The notes beneath the pieces are model-generated. The model saw only the letters and a list, made by a program, of their open reading frames with translations. It did not search any database and was not told the origin of the DNA. This document shows, piece after piece, positions 2,616-19,515 of a stretch of DNA of 20,891 nucleotides. The DNA comes from a virus. The stretch's first letter is position 1. Each line of letters opens with the position of its first letter. Made by a program: the position numbers and the translations under genes. The stretch is from the IMG/VR virus record IMGVR_UViG_3300023174_004339, positions 1-20,891 of that record; one strand, given 5' to 3'.

Positions 2616-2952
2616 CCGTTGATTGTGCACGATCACTGTGCATGCAATGTCCTATTCCACGTATGGTGTCAGCGGCCATTTGCGGGTTGTTTTCAAACAT
2701 GCCGCGAATGTCTTGTTCACCAATGCCTTCGGTGGCATTAAATGTGTAGATTTCGTAGTGGCGTTGCGGGTTAAATTTTGCTCGCAACATCAAGTGTTGA
2801 GGGTTGGCATAAGCATGCCTGGGCGTTTCTTTGCCCTGTAGCTTTTCCCATGTCACACGCTGATGATCAGCAGTGATGTCAGCCACATACTCCAGGCCAT
2901 TACAATCCCACATCACTAGGAATTGATGTTCTTTAAAAGATTTCTTAGACAC
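2602..2952 (-). CDS. Conserved phage protein overlapping nadE
   Basis: A 116-residue protein if translation begins at the GTG at 2952, which overlaps the end of nadE by 8 bp. I prefer this start because the frame then reads SKKSFKEHQFLVMWDCNGLEYV, and the lead-in to FLVMWDCNGLEY looks like genuine protein. An ATG at 2913 would remove that segment, and a longer frame reaching 3009 lies wholly inside nadE. No strong Shine-Dalgarno is visible, so translational coupling to nadE is likely. Later motifs include LMLRAKFNPQRHYEIYTF and the GMFENNPQ segment. The function is unknown. Tight linkage to nadE is the only hint of a role. Confidence 0.7.
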   Translation of the reverse strand: MSKKSFKEHQFLVMWDCNGLEYVADITADHQRVTWEKLQGKETPRHAYANPQHLMLRAKFNPQRHYEIYTFNATEGIGEQDIRGMFENNPQMAADTIRGIGHCMHSDRAQSTVAIR

Positions 2953-3751
2953 TTTTTTTATACACTGGAATAGGCAACATCTTGTGCATGTTGCGAGCAC
3001 GGATAGCACGATACTTCTTGAGTTGTGCCCGTTCTTCTCGGCCCAATTCTATAGGCAAGGTGTTGTACACATCCTGACTCTCGTGCGCATCATTGGCCAT
3101 GGCCTGCTCCAATTCAGGGTAGCTCATGCCCAATTGGTCTTCGTCGGTGCGGCCATCAGTCCACAAGCCGTCTGTGGGTGGTGCATCAATGATTTCCTGT
3201 GGCAGGCCAAACTCTCGGCCCATGTCCCAAACTTCAGTTTTGAGACAGTCACCAATTGGGCTAATGTCTACACCACCATCGCCGTACTTGGTAAAGAAAC
3301 CTACGCCAAAGTCTTCAACTCGGTTGCCTGTGCCCACTACAATACCACCATGACTTTGTGCAATTTGGTACAAGGTCATCATGCGCAGTCTAGCACGTGA
3401 GTTGGCAAACGCAAGGTCAACCCTTGCTTCATCTTCGTTTTCCCTACAGTAAGGTACAAGATCTTTTTCAAATGCCGAGAACACTTTGGTCAAGTCCATG
3501 CTCATATGTGTGACATTTTTGTAGCGTTCCAACAACCAGGTGGCCTGCATTGAACTGCGATTGTTCAAGGCCTTGGCTTGACGTATTGGCATTTGGACCA
3601 CAATGGTTTTCAGCCCAGTTTCGGCACACAAGGCACTCACAACTGAACTGTCGATGCCACCCGAAATGCCCACCACAAGAGTTGAAATTTTGTTTTTGGT
3701 AGCATATGATCGGATCCATTTGGTGATGTTTTTACCTAATTGTTTTGACAT
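2945..3751 (-). CDS. nadE: Ammonia-dependent NAD+ synthetase
   Basis: A 268-residue, full-length short-form NAD+ synthetase (EC 6.3.1.5), which amidates nicotinic acid adenine dinucleotide using ammonia and ATP. The ATP-pyrophosphatase P-loop SGGIDSS is at residues 30-36. NSRARLRM (117-124), GTGNRVED (140-147) and FTKYGDGGVDISPIGD (153-168) follow in family order, then PPTDGLW (191-197) with DE at 203-204. No glutaminase domain is present, so it should use free ammonia. The start has AAAG about 8 nt upstream. It closes a string of coupled small genes (4408-3766) and overlaps the next gene. In a phage it would raise or restore NAD late in the pathway. A link to NAD-depleting host defences is possible but inferred. 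Confidence 0.95.
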   Translation of the reverse strand: MSKQLGKNITKWIRSYATKNKISTLVVGISGGIDSSVVSALCAETGLKTIVVQMPIRQAKALNNRSSMQATWLLERYKNVTHMSMDLTKVFSAFEKDLVPYCRENEDEARVDLAFANSRARLRMMTLYQIAQSHGGIVVGTGNRVEDFGVGFFTKYGDGGVDISPIGDCLKTEVWDMGREFGLPQEIIDAPPTDGLWTDGRTDEDQLGMSYPELEQAMANDAHESQDVYNTLPIELGREERAQLKKYRAIRARNMHKMLPIPVYKKSV

Positions 3752-6614: not shown

Positions 6615-6848
6615 TTATTTCTGCGACTTTTTTAAGCAGAAAAATGTGGCGTCGGCATTGTTGCGAAAATACAACACTAGTTTTGTGGCCGACAAACGTC
6701 CTTTTCTGCGCCAATCTGGCGTGTCAAGTAAACGATAAAACCAACGGCGACCGGATTGGGTGCCAGATGGTCCAAATAAATCGTGTGCCAATTCTGTGTC
6801 GGTATTCTTGTAAGAATACAAGCCGCAGTCAATTCGTGTGGATTTCAT
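6615..6848 (-). CDS. Small phage protein, YFxxxxDAxxFxLxW-like (copy 1)
   Basis: A 77-residue protein whose start lies 20 bp inside the HNH-like gene, with no strong Shine-Dalgarno, so translational coupling is likely. The end, RLSATKLVLYFRNNADATFFCLKK, matches the end of the 10512-10757 protein (GRYVFYFKSSLDCTAFALKW). The middle, RRWFYRLLDTP, matches WRWQLVDAS. Both therefore look like one small alpha/beta domain family, with the W...YFYF..D...F pattern known from T4-like phages. The function is unknown. A 7-bp inverted repeat (TTTCTGC/GCAGAAA) covers its last codons. Confidence 0.7.
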   Translation of the reverse strand: MKSTRIDCGLYSYKNTDTELAHDLFGPSGTQSGRRWFYRLLDTPDWRRKGRLSATKLVLYFRNNADATFFCLKKSQK

Positions 6849-7396: not shown

Positions 7397-8587
7397 TTAA
7401 AACATGTCCTTGGCATCTGGTGTGTAAACGCTGAATGGCATCTTGGGAAACTTGAAGCCCGTTGGTTGTTGTGGTGCCCAAGTGGTATGCATTTGGTGCC
7501 AAAAGAATGCAATACCTTGTGGTGTGTTCTTGCTGTTGCGTGGTGGATCAGTCCAGTCTGTCTTGGGACGATGGCGGTTGTGCTTGTTCCAGGCATTGAC
7601 ATTGGCTTGATGGCATTGTTCCCAATACGGGCCTTTGGCATCAAAGTTGGCATCAAACAAGTCAATACAATGTTGTGCCAGGTCTTCAATCTGTGCATCT
7701 GTGTATCGAATATCTTGTTGTTCGCACAGGTTCAAGAACTCAATAATGATGGGAATTTCCTTAGTGTTAATGGGACGTTGCTGAATGCCCACTATGTACC
7801 GTCCATATACTGAGAACTGGCGTACCACTTCTACACTGGCATCATTAAGTTCGTTGAGACGACTAATAGCACCTGCTTGGTCAGTGTCGTTGAACTTTTC
7901 CGCAGTCAAAAACATGTCTGCGTTTTTGATGTGTGTCCACTTGGCGTGCGCATCTACCCACTCAGGTTCGTTGGCATTGTCCACTTCAACACCATAGATC
8001 ATCTGTATAAAGATGTCAATGATATCCAAGGGTTTTTTGCCAGCGTTCTTGCCCACTGTGGTGTTGTTGTTAATAAAGTTACTACGAAGCTCACCACGAC
8101 TTGCAATGTCGTAGATGTTGATGGGGACTTCAATGTCTTCAAAATTTTCCACAAGCCCGTGCACAGCAATCAAATACAAAGCAATCGAGGTGTGCTGTCC
8201 ATCCCACCCACCCCATCCGCCGTTGGGTGTGGCATACACCTGAATGGGTTGTGCTTGGTATGCACGGAAGTTGGTGATGATGGTAAGAATCCACTGCAAG
8301 TTGGGTTCACGTTGCATGGTGGTGTCAATCACAATGTCTTTGAGCTTGCCCATGAGACTCTTGCACATACGAAATTTAGAGCGGTCGTTGATGCTTTTGA
8401 GTCCAGGGTGATTGCGTTTGAATGCCTGCAAGGCCTTGGTTAGTTTTGCTTGCCAGTTGCGCTGAGCTTGCAGTGGCAATGCTGCCACGGTGTCATTGTA
8501 ACGCTGAACAAGGTCAACTAGATTTGATGCTGAATTTGTGTAGCGGGCGTTTCGCGTGGCCGCATAATTTGAAGTGGCAGTTGCCAT
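7397..8587 (-). CDS. ParB/sulfiredoxin-fold (DGQH-type) protein
   Basis: A 396-residue soluble protein. MQREPNLQWI (91-100), followed by NFRAYQAQPIQVY, and then GGWDGQHTSIAL (126-137) resemble the ParB/Srx-fold core of DUF262 and DGQHR proteins, whose conserved DGQ loop binds nucleotide or metal. After it comes a long helical part (FLTAEKFNDTDQAGAISRLNELND..., RPINTKEIPIIIEFLNLCEQQ) and a Trp/His-rich tail (FFWHQMHTTWAPQQ). AAGGA precedes the ATG. It heads a unit with the HNH-like gene and the small gene at 6615, with a strong promoter and a structured leader of about 90 nt. Its role is not established; a nuclease or DNA-sensing role with the HNH partner is an inference. Confidence 0.65.
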   Translation of the reverse strand: MATATSNYAATRNARYTNSASNLVDLVQRYNDTVAALPLQAQRNWQAKLTKALQAFKRNHPGLKSINDRSKFRMCKSLMGKLKDIVIDTTMQREPNLQWILTIITNFRAYQAQPIQVYATPNGGWGGWDGQHTSIALYLIAVHGLVENFEDIEVPINIYDIASRGELRSNFINNNTTVGKNAGKKPLDIIDIFIQMIYGVEVDNANEPEWVDAHAKWTHIKNADMFLTAEKFNDTDQAGAISRLNELNDASVEVVRQFSVYGRYIVGIQQRPINTKEIPIIIEFLNLCEQQDIRYTDAQIEDLAQHCIDLFDANFDAKGPYWEQCHQANVNAWNKHNRHRPKTDWTDPPRNSKNTPQGIAFFWHQMHTTWAPQQPTGFKFPKMPFSVYTPDAKDMF

Positions 8588-8734: not shown

Positions 8735-8750
8735 GTTGTATTTTTACAAC
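8735..8750 (-). repeat. Gene-end hairpin GTTGTA/TACAAC
   Basis: Perfect 6-bp inverted repeat with a 4-nt loop that contains the stop codon of the TylF-like gene. It is the same kind of element as at 5823 and 6134. Confidence 0.5.
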
Positions 8751-9475
8751 ACTCTTACTGCTACTTTTTGGTGTTTAGACACACGACCAATGTACTCGTA
8801 TGCAACCCCGTACTTTCGGCAGTGCTCTTGCCAGGCACGAAACTCATCCAACTGCCAACCAGGATAGTTGATGTATTCATCAAACACAATCACAGTGCCA
8901 GGTACAATGTTGTTTTTTAAGTTGTTTAAAATTGTCACTGTGCTGGAATACAAATCGCAGTCAACATGCAATAATGCAATTGGCTCCGGATGTTTCTCAA
9001 CAAACCCCGGCAAGGTTTCGTTAAACCATCCCACAACAAGTTCACAATTTTTGCGCACCCGAGGCAAGTGATCTCTGGCAAAAAATCCCTTGCGCATCCT
9101 AGAAGTCCAGTCCTCAGGGAGACCATCAAACCCATCAAACCCATACACAGTTTTGTGCGGCAACCAATAAGCAAACTGATTCAGGGTTCGTCCGGTGGCT
9201 ACACCAAATTCCAACACTTGTCCATGTGCCAACAATCCTCGATCCAGTTGCGTGGTTGCAATCCATTCATGTAAATCATAGTCGGTGTCAAAGTTGGGCA
9301 CAGCTCGCATGTGCTCTAGCACATAACAAGCCGACTCTTCACTGGCCAGTCTTACCGCAGTAAACTCGGTGTCAATGACATCAGTGTACAGTCCCAGTGA
9401 TTGTTTTTGTGCTTGAGTGGGCTGTGGGTAACGCCACCACTCTTCGATTCTATCTAAAAGTCTATGTAAGTTCAT
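8744..9475 (-). CDS. TylF/macrocin O-methyltransferase-like SAM methyltransferase
   Basis: A 243-residue class I methyltransferase of the TylF (macrocin O-methyltransferase) family. SAM-binding motif I, LEFGVATGRT, is at 88-97. YGFDGFDGLPEDW (111-123), LLHVDCDLYSSTVT (168-181) and VFDEYINYPGW (197-207) follow, with the aspartates that bind metal and acceptor in this family. The N-terminus contains LGLYTDVIDTEF. Such enzymes methylate sugar hydroxyls in antibiotic or glycan pathways, and copies are known in aquatic phages, so a sugar or glycan substrate is likely but not proven. No good ribosome binding site is seen. It lies 17 bp after the membrane protein gene, so it may be read from the lysis unit. 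Confidence 0.85.
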   Translation of the reverse strand: MNLHRLLDRIEEWWRYPQPTQAQKQSLGLYTDVIDTEFTAVRLASEESACYVLEHMRAVPNFDTDYDLHEWIATTQLDRGLLAHGQVLEFGVATGRTLNQFAYWLPHKTVYGFDGFDGLPEDWTSRMRKGFFARDHLPRVRKNCELVVGWFNETLPGFVEKHPEPIALLHVDCDLYSSTVTILNNLKNNIVPGTVIVFDEYINYPGWQLDEFRAWQEHCRKYGVAYEYIGRVSKHQKVAVRVL

Positions 9476-10511: not shown

Positions 10512-10757
10512 CTAACACCATTTTAGTGCAAACGCTGTGCAATCCAGGCTGGATTTAAAATAAAAAACATATCGTCCAGGACGATGTCCATCACTGGCAT
10601 CCACTAACTGCCAACGCCATTCGCTGACCATTTCAGATTTGCACCATTCCAGCATGGGCTCTAGTACTCCCCAGGGCTTGCTCACTGTTTGAACATGGGG
10701 CCAGGCGGCAAGCAATTCATGCTTTATTTGATATTCTTCTTGCTCAAGTGATATCAT
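10512..10757 (-). CDS. Small phage protein, YFxxxxDAxxFxLxW-like (copy 2)
   Basis: An 81-residue protein whose start overlaps the end of the halogenase gene by 14 bp. The order WPHVQTVSKPWGVLE, then SEWRWQLVDAS, then GRYVFYFKSSLDCTAFALKWC shows the same small domain as the 6615-6848 protein, ending in a strand and a helix with an aromatic tail. I associate the family with T4-like phages, with no known function. Both copies sit downstream of an enzyme gene and overlap it. There is no terminator after it, but the next promoter begins 14 bp later. Confidence 0.8.
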   Translation of the reverse strand: MISLEQEEYQIKHELLAAWPHVQTVSKPWGVLEPMLEWCKSEMVSEWRWQLVDASDGHRPGRYVFYFKSSLDCTAFALKWC

Positions 10758-12288
10758 TGGGTTGGTGTATTTTCCTCAGCATGTCGGCAACTGTGATATT
10801 TTTGCCCAGCATGCGTTCATAATTATGTATTAGACTTTCGGTGTAGTCCACATAATTTTCAATGTGCAAATCGGGTATGTCGGGTAAATCTTCTGAATAC
10901 AATTTATCATATCCCATCAACATACTTGCCCAGTTCCATTGATTAAATGCTGTTTCACCTGGTTTCAACCAGGGCTGAGACAACAACTCTTTGATTTTTT
11001 CCGAAACTTCCTTGGAGGCATTAGCATCATGTACATCAAGCCAATAAGCAGTGTCCCGGCGTTCATTCAATGCATAGTGGTACACTACAAAATTTTTCAT
11101 GTGCAACAAGAACTTTTCAATCACTCGGTCATGCATCCTAATCAATCCGGCGTCAATGATACTATTGTTTCTCTTGTACAATTCCACAAATTTAACCACA
11201 GTTGAACAAGTCACCATGATGGATGTGGCTTCCAAGGGTTCAACAAAACTTTGACTCAACCCATTGGCCACAACATTTTTTATACTGCAATGCTGTTGTC
11301 TGCCACCAACAAATTTGATTTGTTTGGCTGGCTCCCAGTTGTGCCCTTGTTGTTTCCAGTATTTTGTCATGTGATCAACTGCCTGATCATCATTGATGTA
11401 TTGGTCAGAGTACACATACCCAGAACCAGTATTTTGCCATGTGGGTATGGTCCAAATCCAACCCACTGGTTGAGCATGTGCTACAGTTGTTGCATTGTCA
11501 GAATTTCTGCCTACAACTCGCCCAAACACCGCGGCGTTGTTGACTAGTTTAGAATAAGGTTCCCACTTGGTGAGTTTGTCAATTAACAGTCTTTTAAATC
11601 CAGTACAGTCAAAATATAAATCAGCAGTTATTGTGGTGCCATCCTTGAGCAACAAACTTTCAATTCCTTGTTCGCCTATCCTAACATCGGTAACGGTGTT
11701 AATTATTTCTTGATACTTGGTTGGGTCTGTATTGCGTCGAAGGCTATTGCCAAAATTAAATGCATCAACATGATAAGCATAACCGGGGTATCTACTGATG
11801 TTGGCTTGACCAAGTTGATTAAATGGGCTGAGTTTTTCATGCCAGAGAAAATGACTAGCCCCTTGACTACGATTAAAAAACTCACTACCTGTTTTATAGT
11901 GTTTGAGAAAATATTCTACGCTGGTAAGTTCTTTATCTACCAAACGTTTGCCATTCTCAAATGGTGCACGAGTCCAATTTTGATGTGGAAGTAAGTCGTC
12001 AAAACAATGAAACCATGATGATCCTGGACGATTCCAGTCCGTGTAGTGGACTCCGTATTTAAATGTAGCATTGGCATCACGCATCCAGGTAAACTCATCA
12101 ACCCCACAGGTTTCTGCCACATGTTTTATAGTTGGTGTTGTACTCTCTCCAACTCCAATTGGATCAACTTCTTCACTGTGAATTATTGTAAACTCGGCAT
12201 CCACTGTGGCAACTAGATACGCCAGCGTTATCCATCCAGCTGTGCCTCCACCTACCACACATATTTTGGGTTTTTTGTTTTCAATCAT
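10744..12288 (-). CDS. Flavin-dependent tryptophan-halogenase-family protein
   Basis: A 514-residue member of the flavin-dependent (tryptophan) halogenase family. The FAD-binding GGGTAGW is at residues 13-19 and GVGEST at 45-50. K77 in TFKYG matches the essential lysine (K79 of PrnA). WIWTIP at 277-282 is the WxWxIP signature, and FVEPLEAT (348-355) holds the glutamate (E346 of PrnA) used in catalysis. All key residues are therefore present. The family chlorinates or brominates indoles and other aromatics using FADH2, halide and O2. No flavin reductase is visible here, so host reductant would be needed. Phage copies are known, but the substrate is not. Its start overlaps the 12281-12520 gene by 8 bp. 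Confidence 0.92.
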   Translation of the reverse strand: MIENKKPKICVVGGGTAGWITLAYLVATVDAEFTIIHSEEVDPIGVGESTTPTIKHVAETCGVDEFTWMRDANATFKYGVHYTDWNRPGSSWFHCFDDLLPHQNWTRAPFENGKRLVDKELTSVEYFLKHYKTGSEFFNRSQGASHFLWHEKLSPFNQLGQANISRYPGYAYHVDAFNFGNSLRRNTDPTKYQEIINTVTDVRIGEQGIESLLLKDGTTITADLYFDCTGFKRLLIDKLTKWEPYSKLVNNAAVFGRVVGRNSDNATTVAHAQPVGWIWTIPTWQNTGSGYVYSDQYINDDQAVDHMTKYWKQQGHNWEPAKQIKFVGGRQQHCSIKNVVANGLSQSFVEPLEATSIMVTCSTVVKFVELYKRNNSIIDAGLIRMHDRVIEKFLLHMKNFVVYHYALNERRDTAYWLDVHDANASKEVSEKIKELLSQPWLKPGETAFNQWNWASMLMGYDKLYSEDLPDIPDLHIENYVDYTESLIHNYERMLGKNITVADMLRKIHQPNDIT

Positions 12289-12520
12289 TCTGTATATAGT
12301 ATTTTAATATGTGCTTATGACAATAATCAGTGCGATCATCATGAAACAAAATATTATCAGTTATGTTGAACTGATTACAAAAGGCCTGACCATAACGTTG
12401 ATTTTTAAGTGCTTGAAATATGTAACTGCCTCTCCAGGTGCTGTAATCCATGTTAGATATTTTTTTGTTGTTTTTAACCAGGTCAGTTTGATTGTAATTT
12501 CTTAGCAAGGCTGCAAGCAT
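12281..12520 (-). CDS. Small conserved phage protein upstream of the halogenase
   Basis: A 79-residue protein (or 56 residues if the ATG at 12451 is used). Neither start has a clear Shine-Dalgarno. The region from MDYSTWRGSYIFQALKNQRY through GQAFCNQFNITDNILFH is the conserved-looking part and resembles small phage proteins with WRGSYIFQALKNQRYGQAF. The N-terminal extension (LLRNYNQTDLVKNNKKI) is less convincing. It overlaps the halogenase start by 8 bp, so the two are coupled. No function is known. Linkage to the halogenase is the only clue. Confidence 0.7.
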   Translation of the reverse strand: MLAALLRNYNQTDLVKNNKKISNMDYSTWRGSYIFQALKNQRYGQAFCNQFNITDNILFHDDRTDYCHKHILKYYIQND

Positions 12521-14522: not shown

Positions 14523-15212
14523 TTACTTCCTATCGCCAAACAACTGCAACAAGTTTAAGAACAAGTTGATAAAGTCCATGTATAAAGTTAGTGCGCCACG
14601 TACTTCTGCAACATCACTGGCTTCTACACTAAGCTCTTCACGGATCTTCTGTGTGTCGTAGGCAGTGAGGCCAAGGAAGATAATGATGGCTAGGGCGGAG
14701 ATCACCATCTGCATCACGGTGCTGCCAATAAAGATATTAACGATACTGGCAATGCAGATGGCGATCAAACCTACAATCATAAACTTGCCCAGGCTGTCTA
14801 GGCTCTGTTTGGTAAAGTAACCATACCCGCTCATGACACCAAACAACACTGCCGCACCCATAAACGCTGAGACAATACTACCCATGGTAAACACCGCAAA
14901 GATCATTGCAAAACTCAAGCCCATCAAGGCCGCAAAACCATGTAGGCAAAGTTGTGCCATTTGTTTAGTAGGGCTTGCGTTTAGTAAAATAGTAACTACA
15001 AAAATTGCCACCAATGGAGCAAAGATCACAATCCACTTCATTACACCTGTAAAAAAGAATTGTAGTAATTCTGGGCTAGTGCCCACAAAGTAACTGACAA
15101 TCATTGATACAATAACTGCCAGACTCATGTGTCCATACACACGACCCATTGCTGAGTTAATTTCACTGGGAGAACGATATGCAATTCCACCTGTATAAGT
15201 TGTTCCAAACAT
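14523..15212 (-). CDS. Bax inhibitor-1/YccA family membrane protein
   Basis: A 229-residue protein with start ATG at 15212 (AAAAGGA upstream); the frame reaches 15251 without a better site. It has about seven transmembrane helices from residue 28 to 222. The family signature is clear: GLTAYDTQKI (181-190) and GALTLYMDFINLFLNLLQLFG (206-226), with D186 and D213 in the positions of the conserved acidic pair of BI-1 proteins. Bacterial members include YetJ (calcium leak) and YccA, which binds and modulates the FtsH protease. A phage copy might protect membrane proteins from FtsH or alter ion flux; that is inference. It lies in a coupled run between the AbrB-like and acidic protein genes. Confidence 0.92.
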   Translation of the reverse strand: MFGTTYTGGIAYRSPSEINSAMGRVYGHMSLAVIVSMIVSYFVGTSPELLQFFFTGVMKWIVIFAPLVAIFVVTILLNASPTKQMAQLCLHGFAALMGLSFAMIFAVFTMGSIVSAFMGAAVLFGVMSGYGYFTKQSLDSLGKFMIVGLIAICIASIVNIFIGSTVMQMVISALAIIIFLGLTAYDTQKIREELSVEASDVAEVRGALTLYMDFINLFLNLLQLFGDRK

Positions 15213-15225
15213 ATTAATATTCCTT

Positions 15226-15411
15226 TTAAGTTTGTATTTTACTAGGTTCAAGTTTCTTGGTCAAACTCCAAGAACCATTTCCTAGATCTTCCCAAGACAA
15301 CACATCACCTTCTTGCCAACCAGCGGCTGCAAGCAAATCTTCTGGGAATTTGATAACAGCATCACCAGTTTCGGGATCTTCTTCTATGTCCAATGTCCAC
15401 TTAGTTGTCAT
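15226..15411 (-). CDS. AbrB/SpoVT-like small protein
   Basis: A 61-residue protein. KWTLDIEEDPETGDAVIKFP, then EDLLAAAGWQEGDVLSWEDL, then GSWSLTKK matches the swapped-hairpin AbrB/SpoVT-like pattern (EEDPETGD..., LL...GW.EGD.L.W) seen in many phages and in some antitoxins. Such domains bind DNA as dimers, so a regulatory role is plausible. No toxin gene is beside it. AGG lies about 7 nt before the ATG. It is followed 13 bp later by the BI-1-like gene. Confidence 0.8.
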   Translation of the reverse strand: MTTKWTLDIEEDPETGDAVIKFPEDLLAAAGWQEGDVLSWEDLGNGSWSLTKKLEPSKIQT

Positions 15412-16684: not shown

Positions 16685-17659
16685 TTATCCATTTAATTTT
16701 GCTTGCCAGAATTCACTGGTCTGGAACCAGTTGTAGTAGGCCATGAATCCTTCTTCAACATCAACTTGGGGGTCAAATCCCAGATCCATACGTGCCGCAT
16801 CAATGTTTAGTGCGCCACGGCTGGGAAAATCCAAGTCACGGTCACGCAAGTTAATTGTGCCTTTGCCAACTATTTTTACAATCATCCCGGCAGCCTCTGA
16901 CAGACTAACTGAGTGACTTTTGGTGATGTTATAAGTTCGGTTAATGGCATTTGGTAACACCGCGGCTGAAACAATGCCGTCGGCGGCATCATCTACATAG
17001 GTAAAGTCCAGGGTTTCTCCGGCTCCGTTGACATTCAATGTGCCATTTTGCATGGCAGTTAGCATGAATTTAGAAACCACTCGATCTTCCACATCAAGCG
17101 GACCATAAACTGCGCTGGGTCGGAGAATTGTGTAATTAAAGAATTTTCTACGTGAATAATCTTTGACCAACCATTCACCGGCAAGTTTCATAATACCATA
17201 TTGTCCCTGTGGCTTACAGATTGCATCCTCGGTCACATCATCGGTGAAATCACCGTACACCATGCTTGAACTTAGATAAACAAATCGTTTGACCCCGTGA
17301 TTTTTGGAAAGTTCACAGAGATTTAACAGTCCTTCCATCATGGTTTGTGCACCCAGGGTTGGATTGGCATTGACAACTTTTTGTCTTGGAAAGCTGGCTA
17401 GATGAATTACTACATCAAACATGTGTCGTTTGAAAATGCTTTCTATGTTTTTTGATGCAATATCCATGTCATATATCATGGTTGTTTCTATTTTTTTCCT
17501 ACGCTCGTCTGTGAGGTATTTTATTTCAGCAGGATCTAAAATACCATAATTGGTTCGGGTATCCACCACAACCACCGAGTGCCCTTGCTTTTCCAACCGA
17601 CTGACTACATTGTGTCCAATCAATCCAAGCCCGCCTGTTACTAAAATGCTTTTTTGCAT
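16685..17659 (-). CDS. NAD-dependent epimerase/dehydratase (extended SDR)
   Basis: A 324-residue extended SDR enzyme with start ATG at 17659 (GGAG, 7 nt upstream). An in-frame ATG at 17716 has no such site. The NAD-binding TGGLGLIG is at 8-15 and D33 follows strand 2 (VVVVDTR). The catalytic set is SSSMVYG (130-136) with Y154 and K158 (YGIMK). LRPSAVYGP (179-187) and FTYVDDAADGI (219-229) are typical of UDP-sugar epimerases and dehydratases. The exact substrate cannot be read from the sequence. It is transcribed away from the tail-fibre-like gene and probably belongs with the second SDR at 18547 in sugar-nucleotide conversion. Confidence 0.9.
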   Translation of the reverse strand: MQKSILVTGGLGLIGHNVVSRLEKQGHSVVVVDTRTNYGILDPAEIKYLTDERRKKIETTMIYDMDIASKNIESIFKRHMFDVVIHLASFPRQKVVNANPTLGAQTMMEGLLNLCELSKNHGVKRFVYLSSSMVYGDFTDDVTEDAICKPQGQYGIMKLAGEWLVKDYSRRKFFNYTILRPSAVYGPLDVEDRVVSKFMLTAMQNGTLNVNGAGETLDFTYVDDAADGIVSAAVLPNAINRTYNITKSHSVSLSEAAGMIVKIVGKGTINLRDRDLDFPSRGALNIDAARMDLGFDPQVDVEEGFMAYYNWFQTSEFWQAKLNG

Positions 17660-17730
17660 GTGATCTCCATTGCATATTTGTTTATCTACTAAACCTGCAC
17701 GACATAAAATATCCATGTAGATTCTGAGCT

Positions 17731-17758
17731 AATACATGTATTTTAACACAAAGTTAAA
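17731..17758. promoter_or_regulatory. Palindromes in the divergent intergenic region
   Basis: A perfect 12-bp palindrome AATACATGTATT (17731-17742) is followed by the inverted repeat TTTAAC/GTTAAA (17742-17747, 17753-17758). They lie between the SDR gene and the plus-strand gene, where shared control would act. No convincing sigma70 promoter is seen on either strand. Confidence 0.4.
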
Positions 17759-17801
17759 CATGGCACAACTTTTTTTTGGTAAATATTCTAAAGGATCAAT
17801 T

Positions 17802-18545
17802 ATGGGATACGTCAAAGGTATAGACAACAAAGCCAGAACAGTTAAAAATTCGCTGGAAGGGCAAGTGGGAGATATTGCACTGAATGAAGGCACGTTCAAC
17901 CAACTTGTTGTGAATGGAAATGTTGCGATTAGTGGGTATGTTAGTGGCAACGGGTACGCATTGACCAGTGTCAATGCATCAAATGTATCTGGAACTGTTG
18001 CCAATGCCACTTATGCTGGCTCAGTGACTGCAAACGCACAAGCCAATATAACCTCCCTGGGCACATTGACCAGTTTATCAGTTACTGGTAATACCACAGT
18101 TGGTAATCTAACCTCAAACACTTTGGCCACGCTTGGAAACATCACTGCTGTGAGATTTGCTGGAAACGGCCGAACACTTACATCAGTTGTGACCACAGCC
18201 AACACTGCCTACAATGTGGTCAAAGGCACATCCACCAGCATTGACAATATATCCTTGCAAGTGGCCGCAAACGGGTTGCCGCAAATTTCTGCTGTAACTT
18301 CAAATATATCTACATTTTGGTCTGTGGTGGCAGTGTTAACCGGGGGCAACACCACTTCTACCAACACCGGTGGCACCGCCAATGTGGGGGTTTGGACTGA
18401 TATTGGAGCATCAACTCTGGGCAGTGGTGGTGATACCATAACAGCAGTGATACAGGATCAAACCGGAGGCCACATATATCGTGGCACCTTTGTGCAAACA
18501 GCTGGACCAGGAAATGCTTCAGTTATAATTGAACGAATGATGTAA
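17802..18545 (+). CDS. Tail-fibre-like repeat protein
   Basis: A 247-residue protein on the plus strand with start ATG at 17802 (AAAGGA, 6 nt before). ATGs at 17736 and 17759 lie in frame but lack good sites. It begins MGYVKGIDNKARTVKNSLEG. Low-complexity Thr/Ser/Asn/Val/Gly repeats follow: GNGYALTSVNASNVSGTVAN, ANITSLGTLTSLSVTGN, TLATLGN. This is the style of tail-fibre or adhesin repeat segments in aquatic T4-like phages. The C-terminal third (GVWTDIGASTLGSGGDTITA, then HIYRGTFVQ) is a different, globular-looking domain. The protein is short for a full fibre, so it may be a fibre tip or a structural accessory. It is the only plus-strand gene and meets the GME-like gene end to end. Confidence 0.75.
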   Translation: MGYVKGIDNKARTVKNSLEGQVGDIALNEGTFNQLVVNGNVAISGYVSGNGYALTSVNASNVSGTVANATYAGSVTANAQANITSLGTLTSLSVTGNTTVGNLTSNTLATLGNITAVRFAGNGRTLTSVVTTANTAYNVVKGTSTSIDNISLQVAANGLPQISAVTSNISTFWSVVAVLTGGNTTSTNTGGTANVGVWTDIGASTLGSGGDTITAVIQDQTGGHIYRGTFVQTAGPGNASVIIERMM

Positions 18546-18546
18546 T

Positions 18547-19515
18547 TTAGACATCACTTAGATGATGATCAATTTGTTGTTTGATCCAGGCATAAGTTTT
18601 TACTAGCCCTGTTTCTAAATCTTCATTGGGCTGCCAACCAATCAATTGGTTGATGAGTTGGTTGTCACTGTTGCGTCCCATTACACCTGTTGGGCCAACA
18701 ATGTTGTTGATGGCGATGTGCTTGCCAGCCATGTCGGCAATCAACAGCACAAGATCATTGATGCTGATCATGCGTGTGCTACCTAAATTAACCGGAACCT
18801 TGCAATCACTATTCATGATGCGATCCATGCCTGACAGGCATTCATCGATGTACAAGAAACTACGAGTTTGATTACCCGGCCCCCACACATCTACCACACC
18901 TGTGCTTTGAACTACTTTGCGACACAGGGCCGCAGGTGCTTTTTCTCGACCATTGTTCCAGGACCCTTGAGGACCAAAGATATTGTGTAAACGAGCAATA
19001 CGTGCTTCAATGCCATGGTTGCGAGCGTAGCTCATGTACAAGCGTTCGCTAAACAACTTTTCCCAACCATACTCACTGTCTGGTGCCGCTGGGTAAGCAC
19101 TGTCTTCAACCAATAAAGGATTGTCTGGGTCAAGCTGATTGTGGGCTGGATAGATGCAGGCACTACTGCTGTAAAAAACTTTCTTGATGTTCTTTTTACG
19201 CATTTCATCCAAGACATTTAAATTGATCATGGCCGAGTTGTGCATGATATCAGCATCATGCTCACCGGTAAAAATATATCCAGCGCCGCCCATGTCAGCC
19301 GCCAGTTGATATATTTCGTCAATGTCTTTGGTTATGAGCTGTGCCACTGACAGTGGACTACGCAAATCAGTTTGAAAAAATTTATCAGCTATGGTTTCAT
19401 TGTAGGGTGGGTATTTTAAATCAGCGCCAATCACATAATGACCTTGTTGCTTGAGATAATTGACAAGATGATTTCCTATGAATCCCCCGGCCCCACACAC
19501 TAGTATTTTTTTCAT
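18547..19515 (-). CDS. GDP-mannose 3,5-epimerase-like SDR
   Basis: A 322-residue extended SDR very close in motif content to GDP-D-mannose 3',5'-epimerase (EC 5.1.3.18). The NAD site GAGGFIG is at 8-14. AADMGGAGYI (72-81) and SSSACIYP (116-123) follow, giving S118 and C120, with Y149 and K153 (YGWEK). NNGREKAPAALCRK (187-200) gives K192, QTRSFLYIDEC (216-226) gives R218, and GRNSDN (280-285) completes the set. These match the catalytic serine, cysteine, tyrosine, lysines and arginine known in the plant enzyme. The plant enzyme makes GDP-L-galactose and GDP-L-gulose. In a phage the product may feed glycan synthesis or decoration. GGAAAG lies upstream of the ATG. Its stop is one base from that of the tail-fibre-like gene. 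Confidence 0.9.
   Translation of the reverse strand: MKKILVCGAGGFIGNHLVNYLKQQGHYVIGADLKYPPYNETIADKFFQTDLRSPLSVAQLITKDIDEIYQLAADMGGAGYIFTGEHDADIMHNSAMINLNVLDEMRKKNIKKVFYSSSACIYPAHNQLDPDNPLLVEDSAYPAAPDSEYGWEKLFSERLYMSYARNHGIEARIARLHNIFGPQGSWNNGREKAPAALCRKVVQSTGVVDVWGPGNQTRSFLYIDECLSGMDRIMNSDCKVPVNLGSTRMISINDLVLLIADMAGKHIAINNIVGPTGVMGRNSDNQLINQLIGWQPNEDLETGLVKTYAWIKQQIDHHLSDV

Follow-up and report, generated by a model that had tools for sequence, protein, structure and literature searches.

Flavin-dependent halogenases (FDHs) use FADH2 and O2 to form a C4a-hydroperoxyflavin, which then reacts with halide to give HOX (PMC7948982). A conserved lysine is essential if these enzymes are to halogenate their substrate, acting either through a haloamine or, as PMC7948982 argues, as a proton donor. 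Four tryptophan-contact regions (Trp1-Trp4) have been defined, and the enzymes without Trp4 form group C, for which a different substrate scope is expected, probably one without free tryptophan (PMC8269204). However, the group C enzyme KrmI is given as a Trp 6-halogenase (PMC8269204), and lack of Trp4 is therefore not an absolute bar to tryptophan. Cyanophage "prnA" has been on record since 2010 or earlier (PMC3037559, PMC2984593), and the Syn10 cyanophage enzyme VirX1 has been characterised biochemically and iodinates its substrates (PMC8407142; PMC7948982). VirX1 has no counterpart to Thal's helical lid, its pocket is open (PMC7948982), and it is both active and promiscuous (PMC7948982, PMC8407142).

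Here we describe a halogenase gene in a 20,891-base virus contig from IMG/VR (the whole stretch of DNA analysed, referred to below as the window). Relatives of its product were found in 77 phage records, all below 60% identity and with cyanophages (about 30%) as the best-aligned, and a motif scan of viral contigs yielded at least 585 viral stretches that encode relatives. Phages were already known to carry halogenases. The preliminary description had presented this one as remarkable; the gene is real, but phage tryptophan-halogenase genes are common and VirX1 has been characterised, which weakens that presentation. Common as these genes are, the literature that we searched establishes no natural substrate for any phage halogenase.

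VirX1 (PDB 6QGM) and the window halogenase are both phage-encoded FDHs with GxGxxG, the catalytic lysine and glutamate, and no free-Trp lid. However, VirX1 has YPFGP where the window clade has HxFDD, and it sits in a different, strongly supported clade; a second FDH-type protein of Syn10 is about 26-28% identical to the window protein. The FDHs of Prochlorococcus phage P-SSM2 and Pelagibacter phage HTVC008M are likewise phage-borne PF04820 members, but they form a separate deep phage group with about 29-30% identity to the window protein. The Trp 5-halogenases PyrH and AbeH and the 6-halogenases Tar14 and Th-Hal are the best PDB matches by sequence and near the top by fold, and have the same catalytic residues; they nevertheless fall in a separate clade, and their carboxylate-binding motifs (Trp3 QxxQ and Trp4 YHG..YS) are missing from the window halogenase. 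The Trp 7-halogenases PrnA and RebH also share the catalytic residues and the fold (TM about 0.8), but their group A Trp4 helical-lid motif is absent from the window protein and their clade, represented in the tree by RebH, is a separate one. BrvH and Xcc4156, which are group C indole FDHs, resemble the window halogenase in having HxF and no Trp4 and in that free Trp is not expected as substrate, but belong to a bacterial clade that is supported as separate.

The window halogenase and its active site

The halogenase ORF is intact, with an ATG start and a stop codon (Table 1), and the window also encodes an endolysin and other phage families. Two profile matches far beyond chance identify the product: PHROG 2928 'tryptophan halogenase' at 3.4e-98, and PF04820 (Trp_halogenase) with E=9.9e-90 and a score of 302 bits (cut-off 21), the latter spanning positions 1-443 of the 458-position profile. 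The preliminary description had called the gene a complete flavin-dependent halogenase in a phage with its FAD site, K77, WIWTIP and EPLEAT glutamate all present, and each of these elements was recovered, the FAD site as GGGTAGW at residues 13-19. In a phmmer alignment E353 coincides with PyrH E354, which makes the second E of E350-P-L-E353-A-T the catalytic glutamate. Among 20 aligned clade members GGG, K77, H94, F96, W277, W279, E350 and E353 are all invariant. Most clade members have WIWETP where the window has the canonical WIWTIP, and the catalytic glutamate of the window halogenase is followed by Ala354 where Thal has Ser359 (PMC7948982).

Table 1. Coordinates of the halogenase, its motifs and the two overlapping small ORFs in the window
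Feature	Position	Strand	Basis or remark
Flavin-dependent halogenase, 514 aa	10744..12288	-	PF04820, PHROG 2928, AlphaFold model
GxGxxG FAD-binding motif, residues 13-18	12235..12252	-	G13, G14, G15 and G18 invariant in 20 aligned clade members
K77, catalytic lysine (= PyrH K75, Thal Lys79)	12058..12060	-	phmmer alignment with PyrH; clade-invariant
H94-C-F96, HxF 'Trp2' aromatic-stacking motif	12001..12009	-	H94 and F96 clade-invariant; motif defined in PMC8269204
W277-I-W-T-I-P282, WxWxIP motif	11443..11460	-	W277 and W279 clade-invariant
E353, catalytic glutamate (= PyrH E354)	11230..11232	-	PyrH alignment; clade-invariant
Region aligned with Trp4 lid, WLKPGETAFNQWNWASMLMG instead of YHGFExYS	10912..10971	-	sequence alignments
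79-aa ORF, orphan, 8-base overlap with halogenase start	12281..12520	-	no relatives found
81-aa ORF, 14-base overlap with halogenase end	10512..10757	-	weak paralogue of 6615..6848

An AlphaFold model built from 20 clade sequences is full-length, with a mean pLDDT of 83.6 and a pTM of 0.87. It has the two-domain FDH fold and matches the structures of PrnA, PyrH, AbeH, RebH, Thal, Tar14 and BrvH with TM 0.75-0.82. The model is of low confidence around residues 101-120 and of only moderate confidence at 431-450, both of which lie near the pocket; the substrate pocket was assessed from sequence and fold only. The best PDB matches by sequence are tryptophan 5-/6-halogenases (8FOV, 6NSD, 2WET), with VirX1 further down. 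The weakest PDB match is 5uao, entered as tryptophane-5-halogenase, which we take to be MibH. Taken together, the gene is intact and encodes a flavin-dependent halogenase that is probably active and two-component.

The halogenase lies in a co-directional run that consists of a gene for a 241-aa PHROG 11543 protein, the 79-aa ORF, the halogenase, the 81-aa ORF and then the endolysin. The preliminary description had pointed to the small ORF overlapping the halogenase start, had suggested that it is a carrier, substrate or partner, and had proposed its co-occurrence with the halogenase as a check. The ORF and its overlap are real, but no relative of it was found in Pfam, PHROGs, 50,697 phage records or viral contigs, nor among the ORFs of halogenase loci or of 10 whole clade contigs, and motif-pattern searches were empty. 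The gene does not recur in halogenase loci, and in clade relatives the corresponding slot usually holds an unrelated DUF6356 protein. The earlier reading of a complete, probably active halogenase with no reductase in the fragment stands, but the proposed role of the 79-aa ORF is unsupported. As for a linked precursor peptide of the RiPP type, the 79-aa neighbour neither recurs nor has relatives, and no further candidate was found. At the other end of the halogenase, the C-terminus of the 81-aa protein is weakly similar (38% over 39 residues) to that of the protein encoded at 6615-6848 (-).

A phage-only clade and its gene neighbourhoods

The window gene groups with about 28 contigs at 44-54% identity in a phage-only clade, the nearest long relative being 54% identical; when viral contigs were scanned specifically for the clade, about 25 came up at 44-53%, some of which had already been found. 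Across the genomes of 84,980 species of bacteria and archaea, a degenerate-pattern scan gave no bacterial match above 32% identity. In a midpoint-rooted mixture-model tree of 54 proteins, which includes RebH as the representative of the PrnA/RebH type and leaves out MibH and SrpI, the window gene falls inside a phage-only clade of 13 representatives whose branch is present in 96% of bootstrap trees (94/73). The grouping of this clade with two viral contig loci, L015 and L021, has support of 100/99, and the RebH/PyrH, BrvH/Xcc-type and VirX1 groups are split from the clade by branches with 97/90 and 99/99, in agreement with a quick tree. Closest kinship to VirX1 is ruled out by these two branches. 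The phylogeny with known and cyanophage halogenases that the preliminary description had asked for thus places the window halogenase, by sequence, in a distinct phage-only subfamily of a known kind of enzyme. Close clade pairs (75-99% protein identity) have dN/dS values of 0.05-0.22, one of them counted as pN/pS owing to saturated synonymous sites, which points to purifying selection on the family; for the window gene itself, no relative is close enough for such an estimate.

The L015 and L021 contigs each carry two different halogenase-type genes a few hundred bases apart (L015:6013-8912, L021:6013-9246). A radical SAM gene and a gene for an NDP-sugar epimerase come before the pair.

Clustering of neighbouring genes placed a DUF6356 (PF19883) gene upstream of the halogenase in 17 of the 28 clade loci, with at least one more found by profile, and in some cases one or two genes separate the pair. 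DUF6356 was not found in the window. It was first seen only in clade loci, but a DUF6356-centred scan gave 72 viral loci. The retrieved flank holds a PF04820-type ORF, in some cases a short halogenase, at 37 of them and no halogenase at the other 35, so that exclusivity to the clade is rejected. As DUF6356 also occurs without a clade halogenase, it is a module partner and not a dedicated subunit. Many of these 35 loci carry a gene of ~192 aa that resembles the 2OG-type gene adjoining the halogenase in three clade loci (L101, L107 and L114).

DUF6356 itself is a small protein with invariant H7, E10, Y15, H18, H21, H39, Y58 and H66, and travels with halogenase-type or 2OG-type genes (L246-L317; clade loci L091-L114). 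The DUF6356 loci also contain a distant, short halogenase-like subfamily of ~395-400 aa (L253, L255-L257, L260, L262-L265, L270, L275, L290, L292, L293), which keeps the lysine and glutamate but where WxWxIP has mostly given way to a sequence of the WQFxI[DG] type. In L256 and L264 the short halogenase stands in the order seen in the long clade, i.e. DUF6356, 2OG-type gene, halogenase.

Hydroxylases cluster near the clade halogenases. Matches to PF05118 (Asp/Asn-hydroxylase), whose model matched six clade contigs, lay within 5 kb of the halogenase in 17 of 21 cases against 5 expected from random placement (p=0.001), and PF05118, PF13759 and PF13640 together did so in 24 of 32 against 7 expected, although some of the contigs are close relatives and the p-values are optimistic. 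Neither PF05118 nor PF13640 matched anything in the window, but the PF05118 control genomes were silent as well. Tail-fibre-like gene clusters lie near about half of the clade loci, and glycosyltransferases, epimerases and radical SAM enzymes also recur, the last two being common to the window and the clade neighbourhoods. The clade forms a clearly delimited, phage-only subfamily with a recurring neighbourhood (DUF6356, 2OG hydroxylases and tail-fibre genes), which makes the substrate question concretely testable.

Candidate reaction, substrate and role

We consider it likely that the window halogenase is a two-component enzyme that would use host-supplied FADH2 and act on an aromatic target other than free tryptophan. 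The preliminary description had reported no visible flavin reductase, and indeed neither PF01613 (flavin reductase) nor PF02525 (flavodoxin-like) was found in the 20,891-base fragment; there was no reductase in 15 clade contigs either, which are themselves fragments. Host FADH2 is therefore the likely source. In the proposed mechanism a host flavin reductase would supply FADH2, which would bind at the GxGxxG site and react with O2 to give the C4a-hydroperoxyflavin. Halide would convert this to hypohalous acid, which would then travel through the tunnel guarded by WxWxIP. K77 and E353 would steer the electrophilic transfer of halogen to an electron-rich aromatic ring stacked on H94/F96. The window protein carries the conserved residues that such chemistry requires. 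The substrate would probably be an indole, a phenol or an aromatic side chain within some larger molecule. Enzymatic activity, host FADH2 as the source and the substrate class are inferred.

A NAD synthetase gene lies at 2945-3751 (-) in the window and may have a link to cofactor supply. P-SSM2 has an annotated NAD synthetase directly after its halogenase (L007:5451-5888).

The tryptophan-contact regions bear on the substrate. Trp1 reads STTPTI and Trp2 reads HCFDD, so that HxF is kept, but non-Trp group C enzymes carry HxF too. Trp3 has N163-I-S-R where group B has the carboxylate-binding QxxQ, Trp4 has LKPGETAFNQWNW where group B reads YHG..YS, and the free-L-tryptophan motif of groups A/B is absent. 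The lack of Trp3 and Trp4 with retention of HxF suggests that free tryptophan is an unlikely substrate and that the aromatic ring can probably still be held. Identification as a free-tryptophan halogenase is unsupported by the motifs. Targets may be small molecules or proteins, and the clade is a candidate source of non-tryptophan-pocket halogenases for biocatalysis.

There are several ways in which such an enzyme could serve the phage. It may be the product of an auxiliary metabolic gene that acts on a small host metabolite (free Trp, an indole, a phenolic or a signal) and so alters host physiology or excludes competitors; an auxiliary metabolic role is what has been proposed for cyanophage prnA (PMC10452541, PMC2984593). 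We regard this as a serious, if tentative, possibility: the HxF stacking motif is kept, and indoles, phenols and azaindoles are among the substrates of VirX1 and group C enzymes, but the lack of Trp3/Trp4 speaks against free Trp, the neighbours are sugar, hydroxylase and tail-fibre genes and not a biosynthetic pathway, and no aromatic or tailoring pathway is present in the fragment, as the preliminary description had observed for aromatic pathways. The clustering of PF05118 hydroxylases (17 of 21 within 5 kb), the tail-fibre-like clusters near about half of the loci and the missing free-Trp motif would also suit a modifier of the virion or of a peptide, halogenating Trp/Tyr of a phage protein (a tail fibre or a small peptide) beside protein hydroxylases in a virion-modification cassette. 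There is precedent in that MibH and SrpI halogenate RiPPs and that peptidyl-Trp FDHs exist, MibH acting after proline hydroxylation (PMC12615548). However, no match to PF05118 (with its controls silent), PF13640 or DUF6356 was found in the window, the placement p-values are optimistic given several closely related contigs, no substrate peptide was found and the adjacent 79-aa ORF does not recur, and we think this role rather unlikely. That the clade as a whole would halogenate protein, e.g. aromatic residues of tail fibres or of DUF6356, in an oxidative cassette with Asp/Asn hydroxylases is a concrete proposal to which we attach still lower probability. We know of no report of halogenation of virion proteins.

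The two other readings concern the enzyme itself. The fold could have been kept while the reaction drifted to other flavin chemistry, such as oxidation or halide-independent hydroxylation, as might be suggested by the Ala in place of Ser beside the catalytic Glu, the change from WxWxIP to WIWETP in most clade members and the loss of WxWxIP (WQFxID) in the short DUF6356-linked relatives; nevertheless, the Lys and Glu required for halogenation do not vary within the clade, the WIWTIP of the window copy is canonical, and this drift seems improbable. A decaying passenger gene without function would fit the sporadic distribution among phages, but the intact ORF, the invariant active-site residues and the clade dN/dS of 0.05-0.22 leave that reading with hardly any weight. 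An active halogenase acting on an aromatic target other than free tryptophan is thus the reading that we favour.

The window is a fragment of a marine-type virus. For the upstream gene, similar proteins occur in phages of Nitrincola, Limnohabitans, Sinorhizobium and Agrobacterium, and the phage type is only weakly placed by such similarities. Rfam and tRNA scans of the window were empty, and neither the 510-aa radical SAM protein (618-2150, -; tblastn against 50,697 phage records) nor the protein of 7397..8587 had a match in phage records. The window also encodes a TylF-type methyltransferase (8744-9475) and a Bax1-I (BI-1/YccA-like) membrane protein (14523-15251, -), and two NDP-sugar epimerases (16685-17716, - and 18547-19515, -) flank a repeat-rich tail-fibre-like ORF (17736-18545, +).
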